DNA of 64,000 nt from Rhabdothermincola salaria (GTDB taxonomy: Bacteria; Actinomycetota; Acidimicrobiia; Acidimicrobiales; Acidimicrobilacustridaceae): positions 1 to 64,000 of the forward strand of contig NZ_JAJQXW010000004.1 of NCBI RefSeq assembly GCF_021246445.1, read 5' to 3'. Below, in pieces: positions 52,413 to 63,997 of the stretch. The notes beneath the pieces are model-generated. The model did no database searches. It saw only the letters and a list, made by a program, of their open reading frames with translations, and was not told where the DNA came from. Numbering within the stretch: the stretch's first letter is position 1; each line of letters opens with the position of its first letter. The position numbers were made by a program, and so were the translations under genes.

Positions 52413-52518
52413 TCCGCTCCCTCACCAGCCTGCCAGCAAGTGACGGCACGTCTGCGTCAAACGGAAGCCCCGCATCGCCAGTTCAGTCCTCATGCTAGCC
52501 AACTGAATCGGGCAGCCT

Positions 52519-53274
52519 CTACTCCCCGGGAGGGGCCTCAATACGAAGGGACACTCGCTCACCGACCGACTCGACGTGCGGGGAACCTCCGGCGCTTCGC
52601 TGCAGAGATGGTGTGGAGTTGCCCCGCTTTGGTGGACACCTGATTCTGGGGGAGACCCTGGAGGAAGTCTCGGCCACTGGATCGGACACCGTGACGATCA
52701 GCCCGGCGGAAAGGTCGATCTCCTCCCCGAACCGTCCAGCGACCGCGTCCTCGACTGCGGCTTCCGCCGCGACCTCAGAATTCGAACGCAGATCACCGTC
52801 GGAGATCTCCCGGTCCTCCGAGGACGGGGAGTCACCCGAGAACTCACAGTCAACTGTTCGCCAGGACCCGTCCTCGTAGACGTAGGGTTCGAAACCGCCG
52901 CCGTCGTCGAACGGCTCGCCATCGAACAGAAACTCGATGGCGACCTCCCCGGTCGTTTCGGTCACCTCGCGAGTGAGGACCTCGCCGACCTCCGCCTCCG
53001 AGAGGTCAATACCGAAGCCCTCGGCCATCGCAAACGCCACCGTCATCTCTGCGTTGAAGTCCGCCCGCGAGAGGGAATCCCGGCACTCCTCGGTCAACCG
53101 CCCGTACAACACGCCGAAGTCTTGCGCGACAACTGCCGCGGCGACCTTCTCCCCTGCAGCCTGAAGACCAGCTCCGTCAGCCGACTCACCGCCGCCATCC
53201 CCTCCACCGCAGGCAGCCACCACGAGACCACCTGCCAACAGAGCTGCTGTCACCGCACGACGCGCCACCGCCAT
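52519..53274 (-). CDS. Lipoprotein with acidic mature domain
   Basis: A 251-aa lipoprotein. GCGAGGTGTG sets the ATG at 53274; signal peptide VARRAVTAALLAGGLVVAAC with lipobox VAACGGG. The mature part is acidic with one helical domain (EKVAAAVVAQDFGVLYGRLT; ADFNAEMTVAFAMAEGFGID) and a strand-rich portion (EVAIEFLFDGEPFDDGGGFE; SWRTVDCEFSGD) similar to NTF2/DUF4878-like lipoproteins. It is separated by 106 bp from the kinase operon downstream; association with that operon is uncertain. Confidence 0.75.
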   Translation of the reverse strand: MAVARRAVTAALLAGGLVVAACGGGDGGGESADGAGLQAAGEKVAAAVVAQDFGVLYGRLTEECRDSLSRADFNAEMTVAFAMAEGFGIDLSEAEVGEVLTREVTETTGEVAIEFLFDGEPFDDGGGFEPYVYEDGSWRTVDCEFSGDSPSSEDREISDGDLRSNSEVAAEAAVEDAVAGRFGEEIDLSAGLIVTVSDPVAETSSRVSPRIRCPPKRGNSTPSLQRSAGGSPHVESVGERVSLRIEAPPGE

Positions 53275-53411
53275 CACACCTCGCCTGGTGTCTCGACCTC
53301 TCGGGTCGCACATTGGTCTATCAGCCAACGTGCCAATTCGGGTCGTTCGTCGTTGGTGGTGCCCCCGTCGTTGGACACCGGATTCTCAAGGAATGGTCAG
53401 ATGACCCCGGG

Positions 53412-53974
53412 CTAGGTGTCGAGGGCTTCCAGGACGCCGTCCTCCCAGGCCCACACCTGGCAGGCAGTCGGGAAGGTCTCGACCTCGAGTGGCACCTCAC
53501 CGGGACGGTAGACCTCGATGAGGGTGCTGAGCAGGGAGTGGGCCGAGCGTGCGATGGCGTCAGCCCCGCCAACGTCTTGCCACCAGTGCCGGGCGATGTC
53601 GGGCTTGTCGTCCCAGTCGGGGGGCCGTAGGGAGGGGTCCTCAGCAAGGTTGGGGGCGTCCACCCGAGGCGGGCGAGGTGGTCGTGCTGCGCGTGGGTCA
53701 GCGCCCAGGGGGTACCGGTCAGGTAGGTGTTGGAGACCGCTTCGAGGTGCGCGCCGACCTCGGTGACGATGCACTGCACGAACACCTCGGGTCGCCCTAC
53801 GGGGGCGATGATCACCACCCACGCCCCGTCGGCCTGCAGCTGGCCGAGAAGCGCCTCCAGCCGGTCGAGGAGGTTCTCGCCGGACTCCTGGGCGCTGAGC
53901 GGGAACCGCCCTTGAAGTGGGCGCGGGCTGGGTAGCTCTCGGGGGTCGTCGAGCGGGGAAGCTGACGTGGCCAT
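53412..53974 (-). pseudogene. TY-Chap/YbjN-like gene with a frameshift
   Basis: GGAGGACACC sets an ATG at 53974. The first frame reads MATSASPLDDPRELPSP and then VGAHLEAVSNTYLTGTPWAL and LARLGWTPP. The homologous continuation (PDWDDKPDIARHWWQDV; HSLLSTLIEVYRPGEVPLEV; ending VLEALDT) is in another frame. One extra C in the CCCCC run at 53652-53656 would join them in phase (TPP then NLAEDPS). The product is homologous to 55316-55876, including GAHxEAV and LLSTLIxVY blocks. It is either a recent pseudogene or a sequencing error. A riboswitch-like leader lies directly upstream. Confidence 0.7.
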
Positions 53975-54010
53975 GGTGTCCTCCAAGGATGTTCGTGGGC
54001 ACCGAGGGCT

Positions 54011-54115
54011 GTGCCACCTTTGCCGATTACCCGACCAGCTCTTACCTCGGAGCACCGCTGGTGGACGGTTGCTGGGGTGCAGGCCGAGTACCTACAGGCG
54101 CACCCACTCGTTGAA
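54011..54115 (-). promoter_or_regulatory. SAM-clan-like riboswitch, copy 1
   Basis: Minus-strand leader of the frameshifted gene. Stem P2 gggtgc/gcaccc encloses a loop with ggtactcggcc. Next come agcaaccg, a P3 hairpin (accg/cggt) and ggtgctccgaggtaagagc, then ggcaaaggtgg. Loop ctcgg can pair with ccgag to form the pseudoknot. The g-c-a-a-c-c ... g-g-t-g-c motifs are those of SAM-I/SAM-IV riboswitches. P2 bases differ from copies 2 and 3 yet still pair. Confidence 0.65.
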
Positions 54116-54213
54116 GCGCCTGGTGCGAAACAGCCTCCGTAGCAACGCACGAGGCGTCCGAGGAACGCGGGCAAGGCTCCGACCAAGCGACCGGGGGGAT
54201 GCGCCGCTCACCG

Positions 54214-55152
54214 TCAGCGAAAGGCCGTCGAATCGAACTCGATGCGGGAGGAGATGCCGCTCGGTTCGATGTCGACCCAGCCCACTCCGTCTACCAGGCG
54301 GGGCATGCCGGCCGACGGCGGTTGCTCGATGAGACCGGCGGAGCCGAGGGCGCCGAAGAGCCCGTTGGCGTCCCAGCCGGGGGCGTTGTCGAGCACCCAC
54401 GCCATGGCGAAGCCTCGGGTGATCGGGATGAAGTGCAGGAAATGCACGACCGTTCTGGCCGTGTCCCCGTCGAAGCGCAGAGGGCGCCGGCCCGACCGGT
54501 TGGCCGGGTAGCCCGCCGGGCGGTTCACCAGGTAGCCGTTCTCGTCGGTCTCGTAGTGGCGGCCGCCGTCGGTGACCACGATGCGCTGGTGGGCTGGCGG
54601 TAGGTCGCTCTCTTCGACCGGCACCCCAGGGACGAGGGTGATCTCGCACTGGGGTGCGTCGAGGGTGAGGCCCGGCTCGACGTCGGCGCGCTCGGCGACC
54701 AGGGAGATGACCCGTGCCTCGGCCCCGGCGAGGGTCTCGAGCAGGCGGACGGCGACCCGGGCCTGCAGGATCGTCGCCGAGGAGCCCTCCAACTCCCCGA
54801 GCCAGTCGGCCGCGCTCTGGGGACCAACGACCTCGCACTCCCCGACCTGCAGCTCGATCTCGAAGCTGGAACCGGAGTCGTCGACGACCCAGCCGTCGGC
54901 TTCGACGTCGATGCCCTTCGCCCCGAGATGCAGGAGCCCAAGAGCGAACCTGACCATGTCTCTCGGGTCGTCGTCGAGGTGCACAAAGCTGCCTTCGCGG
55001 CGCTCCCACCCGTCCCGGTAGGTGCCGTCCTCGATGGGCTCGATCTTGGGGCTGAGCTTCACGAGCCGGTCGATCTGGGTGACGAGAGCATCGAGGTCGG
55101 TGACCTTCACCATGGCGCGGGCAGTGACGGAGTACGGGCTGGGGTTCGACAT
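54214..55152 (-). CDS. Unknown protein behind a divergent riboswitch-like leader
   Basis: A 312-aa cytosolic protein. GAGGAGGACACC precedes the ATG. It has a helical start (VTDLDALVTQIDRLVKLSPK), acidic central strands (GIDVEADGWVVDDSGSSFEI) and a C-terminal half with VVTDGGRHYETDENGYLVNR and ARTVVHFLHFIPITRGFAMA. No known family is recognised. It is flanked by TY-Chap-like genes that share the same type of leader RNA, so it is probably under the same ligand control. Confidence 0.72.
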   Translation of the reverse strand: MSNPSPYSVTARAMVKVTDLDALVTQIDRLVKLSPKIEPIEDGTYRDGWERREGSFVHLDDDPRDMVRFALGLLHLGAKGIDVEADGWVVDDSGSSFEIELQVGECEVVGPQSAADWLGELEGSSATILQARVAVRLLETLAGAEARVISLVAERADVEPGLTLDAPQCEITLVPGVPVEESDLPPAHQRIVVTDGGRHYETDENGYLVNRPAGYPANRSGRRPLRFDGDTARTVVHFLHFIPITRGFAMAWVLDNAPGWDANGLFGALGSAGLIEQPPSAGMPRLVDGVGWVDIEPSGISSRIEFDSTAFR

Positions 55153-55161
55153 GGTGTCCTC

Positions 55162-55248
55162 CTCATCGGTCCTGGCGGTGGCACCGTGCGCCGAGGCGTC
55201 GGTTGCCCGACCGTCACAGGGCCAGGCCCCTCAGGTCGTCAAGATGAG
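55162..55248 (-). promoter_or_regulatory. SAM-clan-like riboswitch, divergent copy 4
   Basis: Leader of the 54214-55152 gene. P1 ctcatc/gatgag closes the element and its 3' arm abuts GGAGG, so ligand-stabilised P1 could mask the ribosome site. P2 cgacc/ggtcg; loop ggcctggcc can pair with gccagg (pseudoknot); then ggcaaccg, a P3 hairpin (ccg-a-cgcc/ggcg-ca-cgg) and ggtgccacc. The architecture equals copies 1-3 while most bases differ. Confidence 0.5.
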
Positions 55249-55315
55249 ATGCAAAGCCAGCGCATGACTGCGTCGGATAGGTGCCGCACAGTCGCCGGCG
55301 GAGTGTGGGTGGGTG

Positions 55316-55876
55316 TCACTCGAGGCTGTCGATGTACCCGCCGAAGGGTTCGGTGGGGTCGTCCACCCACTCCCACTCCTGGCAGTCGGCGGGAAAGACG
55401 GTCACCGACACCGGTTCGTCGGCCGTGAGCCCGTACACGCCGATCAGCGTCGACAACAGCTGATCGGCGGTGGCATCGAGATGATGCGGGCCCGGCTCCT
55501 CGATCCACCAGTTCTCGGGTGCGCCGTCGTGTTCGTCGGGATCCAGGGGCGGCTGCCAGCCCCGCCGGGTGAGCTCGTCGATCTGGTCGCCGCTGAGCTC
55601 GAGACCTACGGGTTCGAGGTAGCGGTGGCCGACGGCTTCGACGTGGGCACCTACTGGGGTGAGCAGGGCCTGGGTGTAGTGGCGCTCTAGGAAGGTGCGC
55701 TCGAGGATCACGCAGTGCGAGCCGCGTCCCACGAGGTCGGCGAACTTGCGCACCAAGGCGCAACGGAAGGCGTCGACCCCGCCGCCCCCGCTGATGCTGA
55801 CGAGGAACGATTCGCTGACGGGAGCGCGCTGGTCGGCGTCGGCCTCGCCGAGGAAGCCGTGGGGGTCGGTGTGCAT
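55316..55876 (-). CDS. TY-Chap/YbjN-like protein
   Basis: A 186-aa cytosolic protein with the alternating helix/strand pattern of YbjN/TY-Chap (secretion-chaperone-like) folds: FRCALVRKFADLVGRGSHCV, TPVGAHVEAVGHRYLEPVGL, LSGDQIDELTRRGWQPPLDP, ATADQLLSTLIGVYGLTADE and VTVFPADCQEWEWVDD. The ATG at 55876 follows GAGAGGACCCTCG. It is a close relative of the frameshifted gene at 53412-53974 and the only intact copy of that pair. A riboswitch-like leader lies 28 bases upstream of its ATG. Confidence 0.72.
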   Translation of the reverse strand: MHTDPHGFLGEADADQRAPVSESFLVSISGGGGVDAFRCALVRKFADLVGRGSHCVILERTFLERHYTQALLTPVGAHVEAVGHRYLEPVGLELSGDQIDELTRRGWQPPLDPDEHDGAPENWWIEEPGPHHLDATADQLLSTLIGVYGLTADEPVSVTVFPADCQEWEWVDDPTEPFGGYIDSLE

Positions 55877-55903
55877 CGAGGGTCCTCTCTGGGACACCTC
55901 GGG

Positions 55904-56009
55904 TGTCCCACCTTTGCCGTGACAGGGGCCGGCTCTTCCCTCGGGGCACCGTTGGTGGACGGTTGCCGGGACGACAGGCCGAGTACCTCTCACGCCGTCC
56001 GCTCTTGAG
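55904..56009 (-). promoter_or_regulatory. SAM-clan-like riboswitch, copy 2
   Basis: Leader of the 55316-55876 gene. P2 ggacggc/gtcgtcc (with one G-U pair) encloses ggtactcggcc; then ccggcaaccgt, P3 accgt/acggt, ggtgccccgagggaagagc and ggcaaaggtggg. Loop ctcgg can pair with ccgag. After the element, gggacacc/ggtgtccc forms a hairpin just before the ribosome site, a possible expression platform. Upstream, cacccccttt and tagtgt resemble the promoter region of copy 3. Confidence 0.7.
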
Positions 56010-56148
56010 CCACCTCTCACACTACAAAGGGGGTGTGACACTTCCGCCGGACCGTGGCAGGAGGGTTCTGCTAGGCACCCGCGCCGCCGCGCCCCCGGCA
56101 TCACCCAGGCTTCGCACCACTCCTCGTAGTGCTGCAGGGCCTAGGAAG

Positions 56149-56850
56149 TCATGGCGACGGGGACTCGGCCACCTTTTCGAGATGCGCGTTCAGGACCCAC
56201 CACTCGATCGGCCATGGTTGCTCCCGGTCCAGATGCTGGTCTTCTCGGGGGTACCGGCCAGCGGAGACGATGACCCCGCGAAGGGACTTGCCCTGCGCCA
56301 TGTCGGTCTTGGCGAGGAGGTTGAGGTAGTCGATCACCTGCCCGACCGTGCCCGATGGGCTGCTCAGCTCGAACTCGACGACGACCAGGCCTGTCCACCG
56401 GCCAGCGGAGCCCCTCTCCTTGAGGAGCAGATCGATGCGCTGCTTGCGACCAGGAATGCTGAACTCGACCTGGGGACTGTCGCAGTGAACGAATGGCCCG
56501 GGTCGGCCTACCCGACTGAGGACCCAGCGCCGAAGGTCGTTCTCGCTGGGCACAAGAAGACCGACGTCGGCGAACGGCACTTTGGCGAACCGGACCCAGC
56601 AGTCTGGAGTCAGGGTCGGATCTGACAGCGGCCGATCGGTCTCGAGCCCGGCCGCTGCCGCTGCGCGCGCAAGCTCCTCACGGAGCTTGGGCGACATCAC
56701 CTTGTTGCCCCCTGCCCGAATGAGGCTCGACACCTTCCGCACGGTGCTGCATGAGCTGTCGGCCACGTCACCCCAGGGTTCTGGGAGCGATACCGCCAGG
56801 TCCTGCATGTAATCGACGAGGGACGGCCGAACTGGGGCGTCTTCGTTCAT
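56149..56850 (-). CDS. PD-(D/E)XK nuclease-like protein
   Basis: A 233-aa cytosolic protein. The C-terminal half has a restriction-nuclease-like core: Asp in PGRKQRIDLLLKERGS, strand WTGLVVVEFELSSPSG, then a helix GTVGQVIDYLNLLAKTDMAQ. NucS/DUF91-type nucleases share this order, but here the usual E-x-K reads E-F-E, so catalysis may be lost or altered. The start is uncertain: no clear ribosome site before ATG 56850 or 56874. It lies between riboswitch-controlled genes but has no such leader. Confidence 0.6.
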   Translation of the reverse strand: MNEDAPVRPSLVDYMQDLAVSLPEPWGDVADSSCSTVRKVSSLIRAGGNKVMSPKLREELARAAAAAGLETDRPLSDPTLTPDCWVRFAKVPFADVGLLVPSENDLRRWVLSRVGRPGPFVHCDSPQVEFSIPGRKQRIDLLLKERGSAGRWTGLVVVEFELSSPSGTVGQVIDYLNLLAKTDMAQGKSLRGVIVSAGRYPREDQHLDREQPWPIEWWVLNAHLEKVAESPSP

Positions 56851-56892
56851 GGGAGGGAGTCTAGGAATGGGCATCTGCAGGGATCAGCGAGG

Positions 56893-57237
56893 TCACCAGA
56901 TCGTCACGACGTCGATGCCCGGGACCTGGTGTCCGACCCACTCACCCAGAACCGTCTCCAACAGGTTCACGACTCCCTCCTCGGTGTCGACCCTGAAGAC
57001 ATAGTCAGACGTCGAGAGCACCACATCGACCGTGCTGACCTCGTCGTCCGCGTCGATGCCGAACTCGCGCCGCAGCTCGGGCGGCGGAGACCAGGCCGGC
57101 TCAAAGCTGTAGCCGTCCGACAGCCGGCCAACAGCCCACTCACGCAATGCGTCGACATCGTCGATGATGACGCCGATGTCGATTGTCAGCCGGCGTTCCG
57201 TGCCTGCCGACGCCTGTTCTTCGGAAATCTCTGTCAA
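56893..57237 (-). CDS. Small protein of unknown function
   Basis: A 114-aa acidic protein: DIGVIIDDVDALREWAVGRL, ELRREFGIDADDEVSTVDVV and VDTEEGVVNLLETVLGEWV. Codon character is good from about 57237 downwards and poor before. No ATG or GTG starts that part; a TTG at 57237 behind GGGAGTCAGG is the best candidate. The gene may form a unit with the nuclease-like gene 42 bp downstream. The 160 bp upstream (57238-57398) show nothing else. Confidence 0.5.
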   Translation of the reverse strand: MTEISEEQASAGTERRLTIDIGVIIDDVDALREWAVGRLSDGYSFEPAWSPPPELRREFGIDADDEVSTVDVVLSTSDYVFRVDTEEGVVNLLETVLGEWVGHQVPGIDVVTIW

Positions 57238-57398
57238 CCTGACTCCCAGGTTCCGGGGTTCACCACCACGCCAGCTGCTCGGACGCCAGAGCGGCGTTGC
57301 CGCTCGCCCTCGAGAAATCTGACCGTTCGCCCCTTCGTTTGATCCGCTGTACAGCCGCTCGAGCACCTTACGCAGCGAATAGTGAGGCCGCTTCGGAG

Positions 57399-58175
57399 CT
57401 AACCATGATGCCGGTCTGTCCACCCGCTGAGGTCGTGGTCCGTGGCGAGCTCGTCGTCCTCGAGCGGGCGCCACGATTCGTCCTCGATCCGGATGATGGG
57501 TGAACGGCCGGCGTTCTCGAAGCCGTTGCCGTGGATGGCAGCCAGTTCGACGAGCCGGACCGGCACGGGTTCGGCCTCGAGGTAGATCGTGCCCTCGAGC
57601 TCGGCCCAGGTGGTCCCGTCCGGGTAGAGAAGCTTGCCGACGTCAGGGCGGTCGACGATGCCGCTGGCGAACGAGAAGGCCCACTCCACCGGCACCTCGC
57701 CTGCCAGGCGGGCCATCACCTCTTCGGCGACGCCGTGCTCCCGGGTGCCATGCAACCGCAGCGCAGGCCGGGTCCGGCCGGGCGTGCGGACCAGCGCCAT
57801 CGACCATTCTGCGGTGCCCTCGCCCCGTCGTGTGCTCGGGTCGACGAGCGCTCGGGCGAGCACGACGGCTCGTCCGAGGTGGTCGTCGGCCACGACCACG
57901 ACGAGACCTCCGTTCACCTGCCCGGTGACGAACATGCCCATCCTCGACAGCCCGGATTGGGAGTGGGCGGCGAAGCCACGCTGTCCGCGCTCGAGCGCCA
58001 GCCAGCTCGTCGAGCACCATCGAGCGCCCTGAGTGAGGTCGGGATCCGGTCGGTAGGGCACACGATGTCCGTTAAACCGGACGTCACGTTGGCCGGGAGC
58101 GACGTAGCCGAGGACGGTGTTGCAGCCGAACACCCAGTCGACGTCGGGGACGGGCTGGGACTCGTGGGTGCGCAT
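57399..58175 (-). CDS. Unknown protein behind riboswitch-like leader copy 3
   Basis: A 258-aa cytosolic protein. GGAGGAGGACACCCG sets the ATG at 58175. Recognisable parts: VDWVFGCNTVLGYVAPGQRD, GMFVTGQVNGGLVVVVADDH, RALVDPSTRRGEGTAEWSMA, HGTREHGVAEEVMARLAGEV and FASGIVDRPDVGKLLYPDGT. I see no known domain; two strand-rich halves are likely. Its leader is nearly the same as that of the TY-Chap-like gene, so the unrelated products seem to belong to one regulon. Confidence 0.72.
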   Translation of the reverse strand: MRTHESQPVPDVDWVFGCNTVLGYVAPGQRDVRFNGHRVPYRPDPDLTQGARWCSTSWLALERGQRGFAAHSQSGLSRMGMFVTGQVNGGLVVVVADDHLGRAVVLARALVDPSTRRGEGTAEWSMALVRTPGRTRPALRLHGTREHGVAEEVMARLAGEVPVEWAFSFASGIVDRPDVGKLLYPDGTTWAELEGTIYLEAEPVPVRLVELAAIHGNGFENAGRSPIIRIEDESWRPLEDDELATDHDLSGWTDRHHG

Positions 58176-58203
58176 CGGGTGTCCTCCTCCGGGACACCGA
58201 CGA

Positions 58204-58313
58204 GGCGTCCCACCTTTGCCGTGTGGAGCTGGCCGGCTCTTCCCTCGGGGCACCGTTGGTGGACGGTTGCCGGGACGACGGGCCGAGTACCCGAGTCGTC
58301 GTCCGCTCGTGAG
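58204..58313 (-). promoter_or_regulatory. SAM-clan-like riboswitch, copy 3
   Basis: Leader of the 57399-58175 gene, starting ctcacgagcgg. P2 ggacgacg/cgtcgtcc is perfect and encloses gggtactcggcc. Then ccggcaaccgt, P3 accgt/acggt, ggtgccccgagggaagagc and ggcaaaggtggg. Pseudoknot ctcgg/ccgag. The leading tcacgag and core match actinobacterial SAM-IV-type elements as I remember them; a covariance-model search would decide. Confidence 0.7.
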
Positions 58314-58420
58314 CCACAGACCACGCTACGCAGGGGGTGCGACAACGCCGTCTGTCCCTGGCCTCGTCACAACCGACCGGCCATGATGGGTTCTGCTCCA
58401 TGAATGAATCGGAGGGTGTC

Positions 58421-59122
58421 GTGCCCGAATCCCGACCCGACGGCGATCGGCCGCCCCAGATGACGCAGCGCTACACCCGAGCGTTCGACCAGGCGCGGGT
58501 GCTCCACGCCGACGACGTCCGCAAAGGCACCCAGCTCCCCTACCTCAGCCACGTGATGGCGGTGGCGGCGCTCGTGCTCGAGTACGGCGGAGATGAGGAG
58601 CAGGCGATCGCCGGGCTCCTCCACGACGCGGCCGAGGACAAGGGCGGCTGGATGAGGCTGGATGCCATCGAGGCGGAGTTCGGATGCGGCGTCGCCCGGA
58701 TCGTCGAGGCGGTCAGCGACTCGTTCACTGACGACAAGGCCACGAAACGCGACTGGGTGACAAGGAAGACGGAGTACATCGAGCACGCGAAGTCGCTCGA
58801 TGCCCGGGCCGCGCTGGTGTCCGCCGCCGACAAACTCCACAACCTCAACGCCATCCGCTCCGACCATCGCACCCTGGGCCCGGAGCTGTGGAAGCGCTTC
58901 AATCAGGCCGCCAAGAGGGACGGCACGCTCTGGTACTACCGGAGCCTGGTCGATGCCCTTGGCCCCACCCTCGAGGCCGAAGGCGGACGTTCCGAGGCGA
59001 TGGCGAGGGATCTCCGAGCTGCCGTGGTCGGGCTTCTGGCTGAGGTCGTCGCCCAGCCAGAGGAGTCAGTCACCCGAGAGAAGCTGGAAAAGGCGATCGA
59101 GAAGCCGCCGTTCACCAACTGA
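58421..59122 (+). CDS. HD-domain phosphohydrolase (RelA/SpoT hydrolase-like)
   Basis: A 233-aa HD hydrolase: LPYLSHVMAVAALVLEYGGD (first His), IAGLLHDAAEDKGGW (H-D and E-D), and ALVSAADKLHNLNAIRSD (last Asp with D-K-L-H-N). This is the arrangement of the (p)ppGpp-hydrolase domain of RelA/SpoT and small alarmone hydrolases; no synthetase domain is attached. GGAGGG directly before the GTG at 58421 fixes the start; an ATG at 58400 has no such site. Possible role: hydrolysing ppGpp-like or other nucleotides. Confidence 0.85.
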   Translation: MPESRPDGDRPPQMTQRYTRAFDQARVLHADDVRKGTQLPYLSHVMAVAALVLEYGGDEEQAIAGLLHDAAEDKGGWMRLDAIEAEFGCGVARIVEAVSDSFTDDKATKRDWVTRKTEYIEHAKSLDARAALVSAADKLHNLNAIRSDHRTLGPELWKRFNQAAKRDGTLWYYRSLVDALGPTLEAEGGRSEAMARDLRAAVVGLLAEVVAQPEESVTREKLEKAIEKPPFTN

Positions 59123-59176
59123 TCTCCTGCGGCGGACGGGTCTGCTGCAGGTTCGGTTGACGGTAGTTGAGACTAT

Positions 59177-59747
59177 TCAGGCCGCGTGAGCGACCTCGGT
59201 GGGTGTGAAGGCGAGCTCGAACTCGACCGGGGTGAGACGACCGAGGGCTCGTTGGCGGCGCCGGTGGTTGTAGGTGTGCTCGATCCAGGTCACGACGGCG
59301 TAGCGCAGCTCGGAGGGGGTGTCCCAGCGCTGGCGGTCCAGGACGTTCTCTTGGAGCAGCGAGAAGAACGATTCAATCGCAGCGTTGTCACCGGCCGAGG
59401 CGACGCGGCCCATCGATCCGGTGAGCCCGGCAGCGCCGAGCGCGGTCCGGAAGACTCGGGACCGAAGCGGTGGGGTGCTCGGTGATGTCAGTCAGCCAGA
59501 TCTGGTAGGGCCGCTCGGCGGTGAACTCGCGCTGGACGAGGTCATCGTGAACGGCCGGGCCGGGTCGGCCCTTGCCCCGCCGGCCTTTGCGGGTGGTGGT
59601 CGACCACAGCCGCTGGTCACGACACAGCCGCCACACCCGCCGTTCTCCGAGGTCGTGGCCTGCGGTCTCGAGCTCATCGGCAGAAAACCGGGTCAACTCC
59701 ACACGGGGTCGTGGCTTGTGGTGTTTGTAGATTCCCCGTGTGGCCAA
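59177..59747 (-). pseudogene. IS3-family transposase, internally deleted
   Basis: The left piece (from 59747) holds the N-terminal part ERRVWRLCRDQRLWSTTTRK and the first catalytic Asp in YQIWLTDITEHPT. At about 59470 the sequence jumps, out of frame, to FRSRVFRTALGAAGLTGSMG and then GRVASAGDNAAIESFFSLLQ with the catalytic Glu, ending in TYNHRRRQRALGRLTPVEFE. The segment with the second Asp is missing, so no active DDE enzyme can be made. The N-terminus is also truncated and the OrfA part is not recognisable next to it. Confidence 0.85.
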
Positions 59748-59756
59748 GAACGTCAG

Positions 59757-60050
59757 CTACTGGTTAGCCAACTGATCGACCCGTGAGCGGCTGATCGCCA
59801 AGGCGTAGGCGATCTCGCCCAGGCTCAAGTTGTTGGCTCGCAGCTCACGCACGGCGGCTCGTCGGTGGACGGCCACCGTGTCCTTCATCTCCTCGAGCTG
59901 ATCGAGCAGCCAGCCAGCGGCCAGAGCCCGAGCCTCAGGGTCGTCGGCGAGTGAGTTGAGCCAGCCCTCGAGTGGTCCGAGGGCGTTGGCCACCAGCTCA
60001 TTGTTCGTCACCTCACGAGGTGGGGACTTGCCGTTGTTGTTCCTGCTCAT
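59757..60050 (-). CDS. Small helix-turn-helix protein
   Basis: A 97-aa protein ending in a clear helix-turn-helix (RELRANNLSLGEIAYALAIS, RSRVDQLANQ), preceded by a helical segment (ADDPEARALAAGWLLDQLEE). The ATG at 60050 overlaps the TGA of the preceding small gene (ATGA). Its stop is only 10 bp from the IS3 relic, so the insertion occurred at the end of this operon. Confidence 0.7.
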   Translation of the reverse strand: MSRNNNGKSPPREVTNNELVANALGPLEGWLNSLADDPEARALAAGWLLDQLEEMKDTVAVHRRAAVRELRANNLSLGEIAYALAISRSRVDQLANQ

Positions 60051-60280
60051 GACGCGTGCTCCTTGTTGAGCGTGTCGCAGCGGGTGATGGAGGCGGCCAG
60101 CTTGCCGACGACCTCCACCAACGAGGTGCTGTAGAAGGGTGGCCGAGGGAGCGTAAAGACGGCCCAGCCCTGGTCGGTCAGCGTGGGGACGTAGACCAGC
60201 GTGTCCTCGTCCTGTGAGCGGGCCCACTCCAGCAGGGAAGCGGGCATGTCGTCCATGGGGACGGGCTTTGCTCGTGCCAT
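60047..60280 (-). CDS. Small unknown protein, middle of three-gene unit
   Basis: A 77-aa protein: SLLEWARSQDEDTLVYVPTL, TDQGWAVFTLPRPPFYSTSL and VEVVGKLAASITRCDTL. AGAAAGGTG precedes the ATG at 60280, which overlaps the upstream stop (TAATG). Unknown family; the strands and helix fit a small alpha/beta fold. Confidence 0.6.
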   Translation of the reverse strand: MARAKPVPMDDMPASLLEWARSQDEDTLVYVPTLTDQGWAVFTLPRPPFYSTSLVEVVGKLAASITRCDTLNKEHAS

Positions 60281-60444
60281 TAGCGCACCTTTCTGATCTG
60301 GTCGGTGGCGACGTAGCGGAAGCCCCGCATGCCGCCTGGATCCTTCGTGCCGCCGTACACGGCCACCCAGGGGTCGCCCGTGTCCTTGCGTTCCACGTGG
60401 GCCATGAAGTGGTAGTGGCCACCTCGTTCGCCCTTGATCTTCAC
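60280..60444 (-). CDS. 54-aa protein, first of three-gene unit
   Basis: A short gene starting at GTG 60444 with VKIKGERGGHYHFMAHVERK and ending GGMRGFRYVATDQIRKVR. Its TAA overlaps the next ATG by one base. The frame remains open upstream (LVIYTRGDD precedes the GTG), so an earlier non-ATG start is possible. The sequence has a Gly/His/Arg-rich strand pattern and no known family. Confidence 0.55.
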   Translation of the reverse strand: MKIKGERGGHYHFMAHVERKDTGDPWVAVYGGTKDPGGMRGFRYVATDQIRKVR

Positions 60445-60567
60445 GTCGTCGCCCCTCGTGTAGATGACTAGGTGAGGCCGACGTCGCTCGTGGCGTGCTG
60501 GAGGAGGACTCGGCGCAATTCGAGGCGGACGAGCTCGTCGATCCCGACCTGGTCGAGCTGGGTTCGG

Positions 60568-62235: not shown

Positions 62236-62553
62236 AACCTCAGGCTGACTTCCCGAGCCGTCGGCCTGCGCTCGCGAGATGTCGCGGGTTAGACGTGGTT
62301 CGTTGGTCCTTCTGAAGCGGCCGGCGCACAGCCTCCTGCATGAGGGGCCCCATGGTGGGTCGAGTCGCACACCATGTCAGACGACCTTCCAGTTCCGGCA
62401 GAACCAATCTGCTCCGGTGCCGTCACATCTCGAGCTCCTCCTCGTCATCAGGGCAGCTACCGCCGATCCGGTAGCCGACGCACCGGCGCTTGCGGCCGCG
62501 TCTCCGTCGTCGGTGCCCGCCAGGCGGGTACCGCATCCCACGAGAGGTTCCCG
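62236..62553. other. Divergent promoter region, 318 bp
   Basis: Between the two-XRE regulator (minus) and the phosphatase gene (plus). No convincing reading frame. It probably carries both promoters; I see no strong operator-like dyad. Confidence 0.35.
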
Positions 62554-63174
62554 ATGACCGTTCGCTCCCCCAGCCCCACCCGACCACCACGGACCGTCGA
62601 TGCGGCCGAATGGCACCGACGCCCGGGCGAGGTGTGTGACTGGCTCGTCGTGTGCGGTGACCTGCACCATGATCCGGACAGCGCCGAGGCACAGCTCACC
62701 GCATGGGATCGCCTCGGTGTCACCCGCATCGTCGACGTCCGCAGCGAGTACAGCGACGAAGACCTCGTGGCGAGACTCGCCCCCCACCTCGCCTACCACC
62801 ACCTCGGGACGCACGACGACGGGACCGGTCAGCCCGACGAATGGTGGCAGGCAGGGCTCGACGTGCTGACCCAACGGACTCACGGCGACCGGCTGCTGGT
62901 CCACTGCCACATGGGGGTCAACCGGGGGCCCAGCATGGCCTTCCGCCTGATGCTCGCCGACGGGTGGGGTGTGGCCGCGGCACTCGACGCCATCCGAACG
63001 GCGCGACCGATCGCTGCGGTGCTCTACGCCGATTCGGCGTTGGCTCACCACGCCCGGTCGACCGGCATGGCGACCAGCGAGGTCCGCTCGGCCGTCGCGG
63101 AGCTCCTCGACTGGCAGGACCGGAACCCGGTGGACGTGGCGGGAGTAATCAGCCGCATTCGTCGGGCCAGCTGA
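62554..63174 (+). CDS. Dual-specificity-type protein phosphatase
   Basis: A 206-aa cytosolic protein with the C-x5-R phosphatase loop LLVHCHMGVNRGPSMAFRLM, an upstream Asp-bearing segment (VTRIVDVRSEYSDEDLV; HDDGTGQPDEWW) and a C-terminal helix (ADGWGVAAALDAIRTARP). This is the dual-specificity/tyrosine phosphatase fold. GAGAGG 6-7 bases before the ATG at 62554 supports the start. Substrate unknown: protein phospho-Ser/Thr/Tyr or small phosphates. Confidence 0.82.
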   Translation: MTVRSPSPTRPPRTVDAAEWHRRPGEVCDWLVVCGDLHHDPDSAEAQLTAWDRLGVTRIVDVRSEYSDEDLVARLAPHLAYHHLGTHDDGTGQPDEWWQAGLDVLTQRTHGDRLLVHCHMGVNRGPSMAFRLMLADGWGVAAALDAIRTARPIAAVLYADSALAHHARSTGMATSEVRSAVAELLDWQDRNPVDVAGVISRIRRAS

Positions 63175-63307
63175 CGACCGCACGGGATGGCCCGATCGCC
63201 CCACAGGACGCTGGCTTCGGGTCCCTGTCGCCCCTGTGCGCGTCACATCTCACGCCTAGCTCCGTTGCCCTCGGTGTCGGCCCGTCCGCCACCGAAGGGA
63301 GCCGCTG

Positions 63308-63997
63308 ATGGGGACAACGCACGAACCCTGCACCACGTCGATCCAGACGACCGTCTCGCAACGGCGCGCGCAGCGGCGCCGTCGAGAAGCCAGCCAGGCA
63401 CGTGAGCACTACGCCGGTGAGCTGCACGCCATCGCCGTCAGACGCCTCGCAGCCCGCAACGTCAGAGGTGACGACGCCCTCGACGTCGCCCAACGGATCG
63501 CTCTCGGATTCGCCGTCGATCCGGCGGGCGTCATGGGCGCCTATCCCCAGCCCGGCGCCTTCGTGGCCGTGTCGCTCGCCCAACGCCTGATCGATCACCG
63601 CAAGACCGACAGCCGCCAGCGTGGCCAGGGCTGGTCCCGACGTCGCAGCGACGGCTCCCACAGCTCCAGCCGCCAGGTGGTCGCCATCGTGGTGGCCGAT
63701 CCGGAGACCGGCGAAGAACGGGAGCGTCTCGAGGGTCGCCAGGTCCACGACGCCGTGGTGGCCGCCGCCCGGGCCGAGGATGCTCTGTTCGATCGTCTGG
63801 ACCTCGACCCGGTCATGGACGGGATGCCCGCCGAGGACCGATGGGCTCTGTTCCAGGTCGACGTCGTGGGCCGGGCAACCGGGGAGGTGGCCGCCGAGCT
63901 CGGTCACCGCCGGGAGTGGCTGAGCCGTCGGCTCACTGCCGTGCGCCGACGGCTCGCCGCAGACCTGACCGCCGCCGGGTACGTCAGCGCCGCCTGA
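63308..63997 (+). CDS. Sigma-70-like transcription factor
   Basis: A 229-aa basic protein. An N-terminal helical part (YAGELHAIAVRRLAARNVRG; DDALDVAQRIALGFAVDP; GAFVAVSLAQRLIDHRKTDS) resembles region 2 of ECF sigma factors. The C-terminal 60 residues (WALFQVDVVGRATGEVAAEL then GHRREWLSRRLTAVRRRL) resemble region 4 helix-turn-helix. GAAGGGAG precedes the ATG at 63308. No anti-sigma gene is visible before the window end. Confidence 0.6.
   Translation: MGTTHEPCTTSIQTTVSQRRAQRRRREASQAREHYAGELHAIAVRRLAARNVRGDDALDVAQRIALGFAVDPAGVMGAYPQPGAFVAVSLAQRLIDHRKTDSRQRGQGWSRRRSDGSHSSSRQVVAIVVADPETGEERERLEGRQVHDAVVAAARAEDALFDRLDLDPVMDGMPAEDRWALFQVDVVGRATGEVAAELGHRREWLSRRLTAVRRRLAADLTAAGYVSAA

Follow-up and report, generated by a model that had tools for sequence, protein, structure and literature searches.

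SAM-IV and SAM-I riboswitch leaders precede genes without a known methionine link in Rhabdothermincola salaria

A 64,000-nucleotide stretch of the Rhabdothermincola salaria genome (contig NZ_JAJQXW010000004.1, positions 1 to 64,000), referred to here as the window, was scanned as a whole with Rfam at the gathering thresholds. Four matches were returned, all of them to riboswitches of the S-adenosylmethionine (SAM) clan and all on the minus strand (Table 1). Three are SAM-IV aptamers, numbered copies 1 to 3, and each exceeds the SAM-IV gathering score (45.6-53.7 bits, against 38 bits for RF00634); the fourth is a SAM-I aptamer (RF00162, cut-off 44.4 bits). All four lie 7-36 nucleotides (nt) upstream of a start codon. 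A permissive Rfam scan of positions 52500-60500 gave just two matches beyond the four, both far under cut-off, and Rfam detected no leader before the open frames at 56149-56874 and 56893-57474, which lie between copies 2 and 3. An earlier note on this DNA had proposed three SAM-clan-like leaders, quoted in the RNA sense but without recognition of their strand. All three elements are where it placed them, and their above-cut-off SAM-IV matches agree with the SAM-clan layout it had read from them; its set of three was nonetheless incomplete, the SAM-I leader before the gene here labelled UF2 having been overlooked. The membership of the window leaders in the SAM-IV and SAM-I classes holds by every test applied.

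Table 1. Leaders, predicted expression platforms and putatively controlled genes in the window
Feature	Position	Strand	Basis and context
UF1, 258 aa, family unassigned	57399..58175 (ATG at 58175)	-	Behind SAM-IV copy 3
Expression platform of copy 3: alternative hairpins, Shine-Dalgarno before ATG at 58175	58176..58206	-	Sequence, predicted folding
SAM-IV aptamer, copy 3	58207..58314	-	RF00634, 53.6 bits, E 1.2e-6
TY-Chap3 protein, 186 aa	55316..55876	-	PF22552, 45.2 bits, cut-off 27; behind SAM-IV copy 2
Expression platform of copy 2: alternative hairpins, Shine-Dalgarno	55877..55904	-	Predicted folding
SAM-IV aptamer, copy 2	55905..56010	-	RF00634, 53.7 bits, E 1.1e-6
UF2, 312 aa, family unassigned	54214..55152	-	Behind SAM-I aptamer
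SAM-I aptamer, between copies 1 and 2	55160..55250	-	RF00162, full-length match, 53.9 bits, E 1.3e-9
TY-Chap3 gene, frame broken inside	53412..53974	-	PF22552, 39.4 bits on unbroken first part; behind SAM-IV copy 1
Expression platform of copy 1	53975..54010	-	Predicted folding
SAM-IV aptamer, copy 1	54011..54117	-	RF00634, 45.6 bits, E 7.4e-5

The SAM-IV copies thus head TY-Chap3 genes and UF1 instead of methionine or sulfur genes, and the earlier note correctly placed SAM-clan leaders before a TY-Chap-type gene and before another, unrelated protein. The assignment to TY-Chap3 follows from Pfam matches over the cut-off. UF1 matched no Pfam or PADLOC family, and its sole NCBIfam match was below cut-off; UF2 matched no Pfam, NCBIfam or PADLOC family. 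Modeling of UF1 by AlphaFold2 from four sequences reached a predicted local distance difference test score of 59 with a best PDB match of E 0.13, and no fold is claimed. UF1 has a paralogue of 75% identity at locus L002 of the same genome, and the broken TY-Chap3 gene has an intact paralogue at L001:900-1463. Ratios of nonsynonymous to synonymous substitution rates of 0.35 for the UF1 pair and 0.38 for the TY-Chap3 pair, the latter taken over its unbroken stretch, indicate purifying selection on the UF1 genes and on that stretch. The broken TY-Chap3 frame is either a decaying copy or an assembly error.

The three window SAM-IV copies have GCAACCG, GGUGC, CCGAG and GGCAAAGGUGG in common, as the earlier note had described, but the GAAGAGC that it listed as shared is present in copies 2 and 3 only. 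Its description of the leaders as near-identical likewise fits copies 2 and 3 (88% pairwise identity) and not copy 1, which is 76-78% identical to either and has a 2-nt insertion in the 5' junction. Across all five SAM-IV leaders of the genome, GCAACC and GGUGC are unchanged, and GAAGAGC is found in three (copies 2, 3, and L002), with UAAGAGC in copy 1 and L001. The Rfam consensus core of GCAACC, GGUGC, and GAAGA is accordingly complete in copies 2, 3, and L002, with UAAGA in the other two. Elsewhere, a SAM-IV match of 57.8 bits at L218:1501-1620, whose downstream gene encodes a 442-aa protein that matched no family, was found to have GCTCCC in place of GCAACC.

According to an excerpt of the published structural work (PMC6890682), the SAM-IV architecture has two pseudoknots, the second of which, PK-2, sets it apart from SAM-I. 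The window SAM-IV leaders share helices P1, P2, P3, and P5 and pseudoknots PK-1 and PK-2 with the architecture given there; they differ by a short P3 and P5 and by the PK-2 letters, CCACC in the P3 loop and GGUGG at the 3' end. The P2 pairings and the CUCGG/CCGAG pseudoknot are as the earlier note had drawn them. The latter is PK-1, which joins the P2 loop to the strand after P3; its 5 pairs are 100% paired in the five leaders, and one pair varies on one side. PK-2 forms 5 pairs in all five. In other genomes PK-2 is written in other letters. Of seven leaders of the family f33, six have CCCGC/GCGGG and one has CCGUG/CACGG; L217 has CUCGC/GCGAG, and many more leaders have CCGCG/CGCGG. The matching of own loop and tail exceeded that of cross-matched strands only slightly (mean 5.88 versus 5.27), because the strands are GC-rich, and 0.72 of the cross pairs reach 5 bp; given this high background, no significance is read from the comparison.

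The structure comprising P1, P2a, P3, P5, PK-1, and PK-2, without P2b, was then evaluated on the five SAM-IV leaders. Standard pairs filled 98.6% of its 148 cells, compared with 96.2 +/- 0.7% in shuffles, of which 0 of 500 were as high, and 35-48% when the pairing was slid. Compensatory double changes were seen in three pairs, two in P2 and one in P3. The number of such pairs does not by itself exceed the shuffles (174/500 as many), but the covariation score does (0/500), and covariation across the five leaders is modest. Rfam matches and double-changed pairs are thus both present, where the earlier note would have abandoned its reading had neither been found.

The unusual gene context allows that the SAM-IV and SAM-I folds were kept while another compound came to be sensed, such as S-adenosylhomocysteine or another nucleoside, and the earlier note had raised a different ligand as one of its two explanations. 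In keeping with this, the SAM-IV leaders of the genome score 46-60 bits, below most actinobacterial SAM-IV (27 of the 33 non-own matches listed exceed 90), and one consensus letter is changed in copy 1 and L001. The low scores are at least partly due to alignment gaps that fall outside the core, in P3 and P5, and GCAACC and GGUGC are intact in five of five copies and GAAGAGC in three of five. With the core intact in copies 2, 3, and L002, nothing there points to a changed ligand; from the altered letter, one would be a little less unlikely for copy 1 and L001. We regard a changed ligand overall as very improbable, and this part of the earlier note found little to sustain it.

The putative mode of switching was read from the sequence adjoining each aptamer. 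In the window SAM-I leader, the 3' strand of P1, GAUGAGGA, contains the Shine-Dalgarno sequence, 7 nt upstream of the UF2 ATG, and SAM would be expected to close P1 and block ribosomes. This is a likeness to most aligned SAM-I (S box, RF00162) leaders of the order, 22 of 32 of which end in GAUGAGGA; the window leader differs from them by a short P4 and by heading UF2. At 30 of 31 non-methionine SAM-I loci, the chosen start lies 3-10 nt past the aptamer. In the five SAM-IV leaders, the Shine-Dalgarno sequence is inside a predicted hairpin, and the alternative folds include a hairpin overlapping the PK-2 strand. From these features, we infer that the window leaders are OFF switches, with translational control likely.

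In the host genome, which spans 3.9 Mb in 7 contigs, there are six leaders of these two classes, five SAM-IV and a single SAM-I. The genome-wide search for the motif called for by the earlier note yielded the two SAM-IV copies outside the window that it had missed, L001 and L002, which head the intact TY-Chap3 gene and the UF1 paralogue. The six leaders thus precede TY-Chap3 genes three times, UF1 genes twice, and UF2 once; none precedes a methionine gene. A SAM-I/IV riboswitch was also found upstream of metX at C1:92135-92270, with 40.8 bits. Since metX has this separate leader, the SAM-IV/SAM-I set is additional to ordinary methionine control.

We surveyed what SAM-clan leaders precede across the order. 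SAM-I occurs in 137 of 298 genomes, and the sample comprised 149 of at least 150 matches (30 plus 116 loci, plus three from the window and G048, a genome of a different family of the order); one match was omitted as its contig ends at the aptamer, and one locus (L163) was masked, leaving 148 readable. Among these listed matches, 109 head thrC, and metX, metY, metF, homoserine dehydrogenase, and an FMN monooxygenase of the NtaA/DmoA family are headed once each. The remaining 34 head something else. Four of the products are GNATs; others are LRV/HEAT-repeat, TPR, or AAA proteins or gave weak zinc-ribbon-like matches, and many belong to no recognized family. Just a short or broken frame follows the leader in at least six of these 34 loci, and the aptamer of L164 is doubtful. 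The assignments to ThrC, MetX, MetY, MetF, and homoserine dehydrogenase were each confirmed for a single representative, and other copies were recognized by tblastn to the representatives anywhere within about 1.5 kb downstream, the first 30 loci being read by eye.

The SAM-I/IV class served as an internal control for this count. Of 94 matches listed, 67 were read, own included, and these comprise 48 metX, 14 metY, one homocysteine-methyltransferase-like gene, one homoserine dehydrogenase, one UF2 relative (in G048), and two unreadable loci. Among the listed matches that were readable in these samples, non-methionine use therefore stands at 34 of 148 for SAM-I; for SAM-I/IV, it is 1 of 65, namely the UF2 relative. 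The two counts overlap in one leader, that of the G043 homoserine dehydrogenase, which fits both models. Two sub-cut-off SAM-I/IV rows outside the 67, G098:C129 and G089:C2, also correspond to SAM-I leaders, those of L112 and L133, both among the 34. SAM-IV is present in 7 of 298 genomes of the order and in 0 of 36 other genomes of the host's family; the non-own cases are all in family f33, where at least L043 precedes metY as judged by eye. The SAM-IV baseline across the phylum consisted of 28 of the 33 non-own matches listed, read by eye. An excerpt of a regulon survey (PMC3766115) places SAM-IV among the riboswitch classes of narrow distribution and calls various SAM-riboswitch genes in Bacillales, Clostridiaceae, and Chloroflexi probably cysteine or methionine metabolism. 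Our search of the open-licence literature turned up nothing linking SAM riboswitches to accessory genes of the kind found here.

Three further observations concern the SAM-I loci. The leaders L100:1-87, L109:1-88, and L147:1-88, which precede GNATs in three families, have GGCACCC or GGCAGCC in place of the core GGCAACC, and possibly represent an altered-ligand SAM-I variant. LRV/HEAT-repeat proteins are found behind SAM-I in family f54, with L155 and L160 over the cut-off and L113 below it; L133 resembles L113. Look-alike cysteine-rich proteins, one of them truncated, lie behind SAM-I at L135, L140, and L143 in one genus (g79).

Relatives of the genes behind the window leaders were also sought protein first, with their upstream regions scanned for leaders. 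UF1 was found in 4 of 248 genomes of the order, own included, and the other three hold four matches. Both matches in G048 have a SAM-I leader, 7 nt (L008) and 8 nt (L012) upstream of the start codon. No SAM leader was found at the UF1 match in G130, where 635 nt are available upstream, or at the weak, partial match in G182. A UF1 peptide-pattern scan of a collection of 84,980 species gave three loci, apparently those of G048 and G130. UF2 was found in 3 of 198 genomes, own included; its C-terminal relative in G048 lies behind the SAM-I/IV riboswitch mentioned above (51.9 bits), and a weak match in G123 has no SAM-clan leader. The chance of a SAM leader before a given relative is roughly 1 in 1000 by our own estimate, because SAM-clan aptamers number one to few per genome, and the G048 cases are far above it. 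Judged from these G048 relatives, all in a single genome, SAM control appears to persist while the riboswitch class changes, which could reflect replacement of the leader or divergence of its outer parts with the core conserved; by either route, sensing would be kept. TY-Chap3 was found in 33 of the 296 genomes searched in the class, the host among them, with 35 non-own matches, and among the loci scanned its SAM link is seen in the host genome only. The role linked to SAM or methylation that the earlier note had entertained for these proteins gains support from UF1 and UF2, whose relatives in G048 stand behind a different SAM-clan class.

A further family of 141-148 aa, labelled VHWIQ, was found behind SAM-I in G297 and G179 and behind SAM-IV in G650, which is kin at the phylum level only. 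The members L161, L217, and L071 were supported with E values of 6.6e-8 and 2e-4 against 1146 other frames. L162, initially included on inspection by eye, was dropped at E 0.7; L128 and L131 form a pair of their own, L128 reaching the profile only at 0.004.

The near-identical SAM-IV copies 2 and 3 head unrelated genes, and the window SAM-I leader of UF2 is closest, among the 148 others listed, to the UF1 leaders of G048 (L012, 85%; L008, 84%; median 65%). Leader and gene thus appear to behave as exchangeable modules. The same pattern would arise if a mobile or duplicating leader, comprising promoter and riboswitch, had been copied before nearby genes with merely low expression as the outcome and SAM incidental. 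The 88% identity of leaders before unrelated genes is as such copying would leave it, decay seems to have affected both copy 1 and the gene behind it, no SAM leader was found at the TY-Chap3 loci scanned in other genomes, and transposase-like remnants adjoin the region: the broken frames at 59177-59747 on the minus strand, which by eye we take to resemble an IS3-type transposase. Copying of one leader would not, however, place a different SAM-clan class on the relatives of UF1 and UF2 in a genome of another family, nor does it account for a paired structure kept across copies with three double-changed pairs. We consider this regulatory capture rather unlikely.

The surroundings of the cassettes hold further genes. 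An HD_4 or RelA-SpoT-hydrolase-like protein is encoded divergently at 58337-59122 on the plus strand, adjoining the UF1 cassette. By eye, window positions 62374-63997 and L281:13416-19081, around the second TY-Chap3 cassette, hold similar further genes, one for a protein whose dual-specificity-phosphatase match is below cut-off and one other, which suggests that the two regions are related islands.

An excerpt of the study that described the TY-Chap families (PMC9503650) derives them from predicted ADP-ribose and virus-host conflict neighborhoods and predicts them to be peptide-binding chaperones. The TY-Chap3 genes described there lie in ARG-centred neighborhoods; here, the gene is instead a lone one behind a SAM-IV leader, and no ARG-type partner was found among the ten neighbor proteins scanned around it. 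The published context, together with the patchy distribution, the mobile surroundings, and the LRV/HEAT-repeat, TPR, and AAA proteins among other SAM-I-led genes, would be in keeping with the cassettes being conflict genes whose repression is lifted once SAM is drained by a phage or element, for example, with a SAM-cleaving enzyme. PADLOC nevertheless returned no family for UF1, UF2, or TY-Chap3; relatives of UF1 and VHWIQ were absent from the phage records and viral contigs searched, as were those of TY-Chap3 and VHWIQ from the plasmids searched; and no open-licence paper was found that joins riboswitch, anti-phage defense, and S-adenosylmethionine. An infection alarm of this kind seems quite improbable to us.

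The explanation we favor, and consider likely on the comparative evidence, is that the four leaders are genuine SAM-OFF riboswitches on exchangeable accessory cassettes that are induced when SAM falls. Each riboswitch, three SAM-IV and one SAM-I, would be the private leader of one accessory gene. With SAM plentiful, the aptamer would close and the ribosome-binding site would be hidden; as SAM falls, the site would open and the protein would be made. The set would form an added regulon beside the ordinary SAM control exerted by the SAM-I/IV leader of metX. We infer SAM to be the ligand, the switch to be OFF and to act on translation, and the proteins to serve a low-SAM state. As a first guess, UF1, UF2, and TY-Chap3 may be accessory proteostasis or stress proteins; for TY-Chap3, the literature predicts a role as a peptide-binding chaperone.

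Several results weigh against this explanation. The metX SAM-I/IV match falls 0.3 bits short of the 41.1-bit cut-off, and the GAAGAGC motif of copy 1 and its paralogue L001 is altered in one consensus letter. With RNAfold, the probability of the Shine-Dalgarno sequence being unpaired did not exceed 0.003 in the free state or 0.19 in the pseudoknot-bound state; simple folding thus did not reproduce the SAM-IV switch step, with no Shine-Dalgarno release when PK-2 is unformed, a result that speaks neither for nor against a kinetic switch. Of the four non-own UF1 matches, two have a SAM leader, both in one of the three genomes; G048 is a single genome, and its two UF1 copies are not independent. 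The homology of UF2 to its G048 relative is short, 35% over 71 aa (E 3e-9 in a single comparison). A SAM-clan leader was found at 0 of the 29 non-own TY-Chap3 loci scanned (of 35; some are cut by contig ends), and a protein-first search for VHWIQ in 126 genomes of the order gave one further member, without a SAM leader.

A wider proposal, which we think unlikely at present, is that SAM serves as a general alarm in the order and its neighbors, with three SAM-clan classes swapped among fast-changing accessory genes that are turned on when SAM is drained. The pool would comprise UF1, UF2, VHWIQ, TY-Chap3, and LRV and TPR proteins, and the drain could come from starvation or infection. No report of a riboswitch-controlled accessory or defense regulon tied to SAM depletion was found in the open-licence literature.

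The RNAs described here belong to known classes, and the regulon is apparently the new part. Uncharacterized genes behind SAM riboswitches tend to be put into methionine or sulfur metabolism. Here, families without a known methionine link appear, in some relatives, to remain SAM-controlled despite a changed riboswitch class, and the SAM-I-led genes of this group should not be assigned to methionine metabolism automatically. For UF1 and UF2, two very rare families, the leaders offer a first functional clue. In this organism, accessory genes that lie outside methionine metabolism are probably controlled as a set by the SAM level, which raises the question, now directly testable, of what a low-SAM cell may produce besides methionine enzymes.

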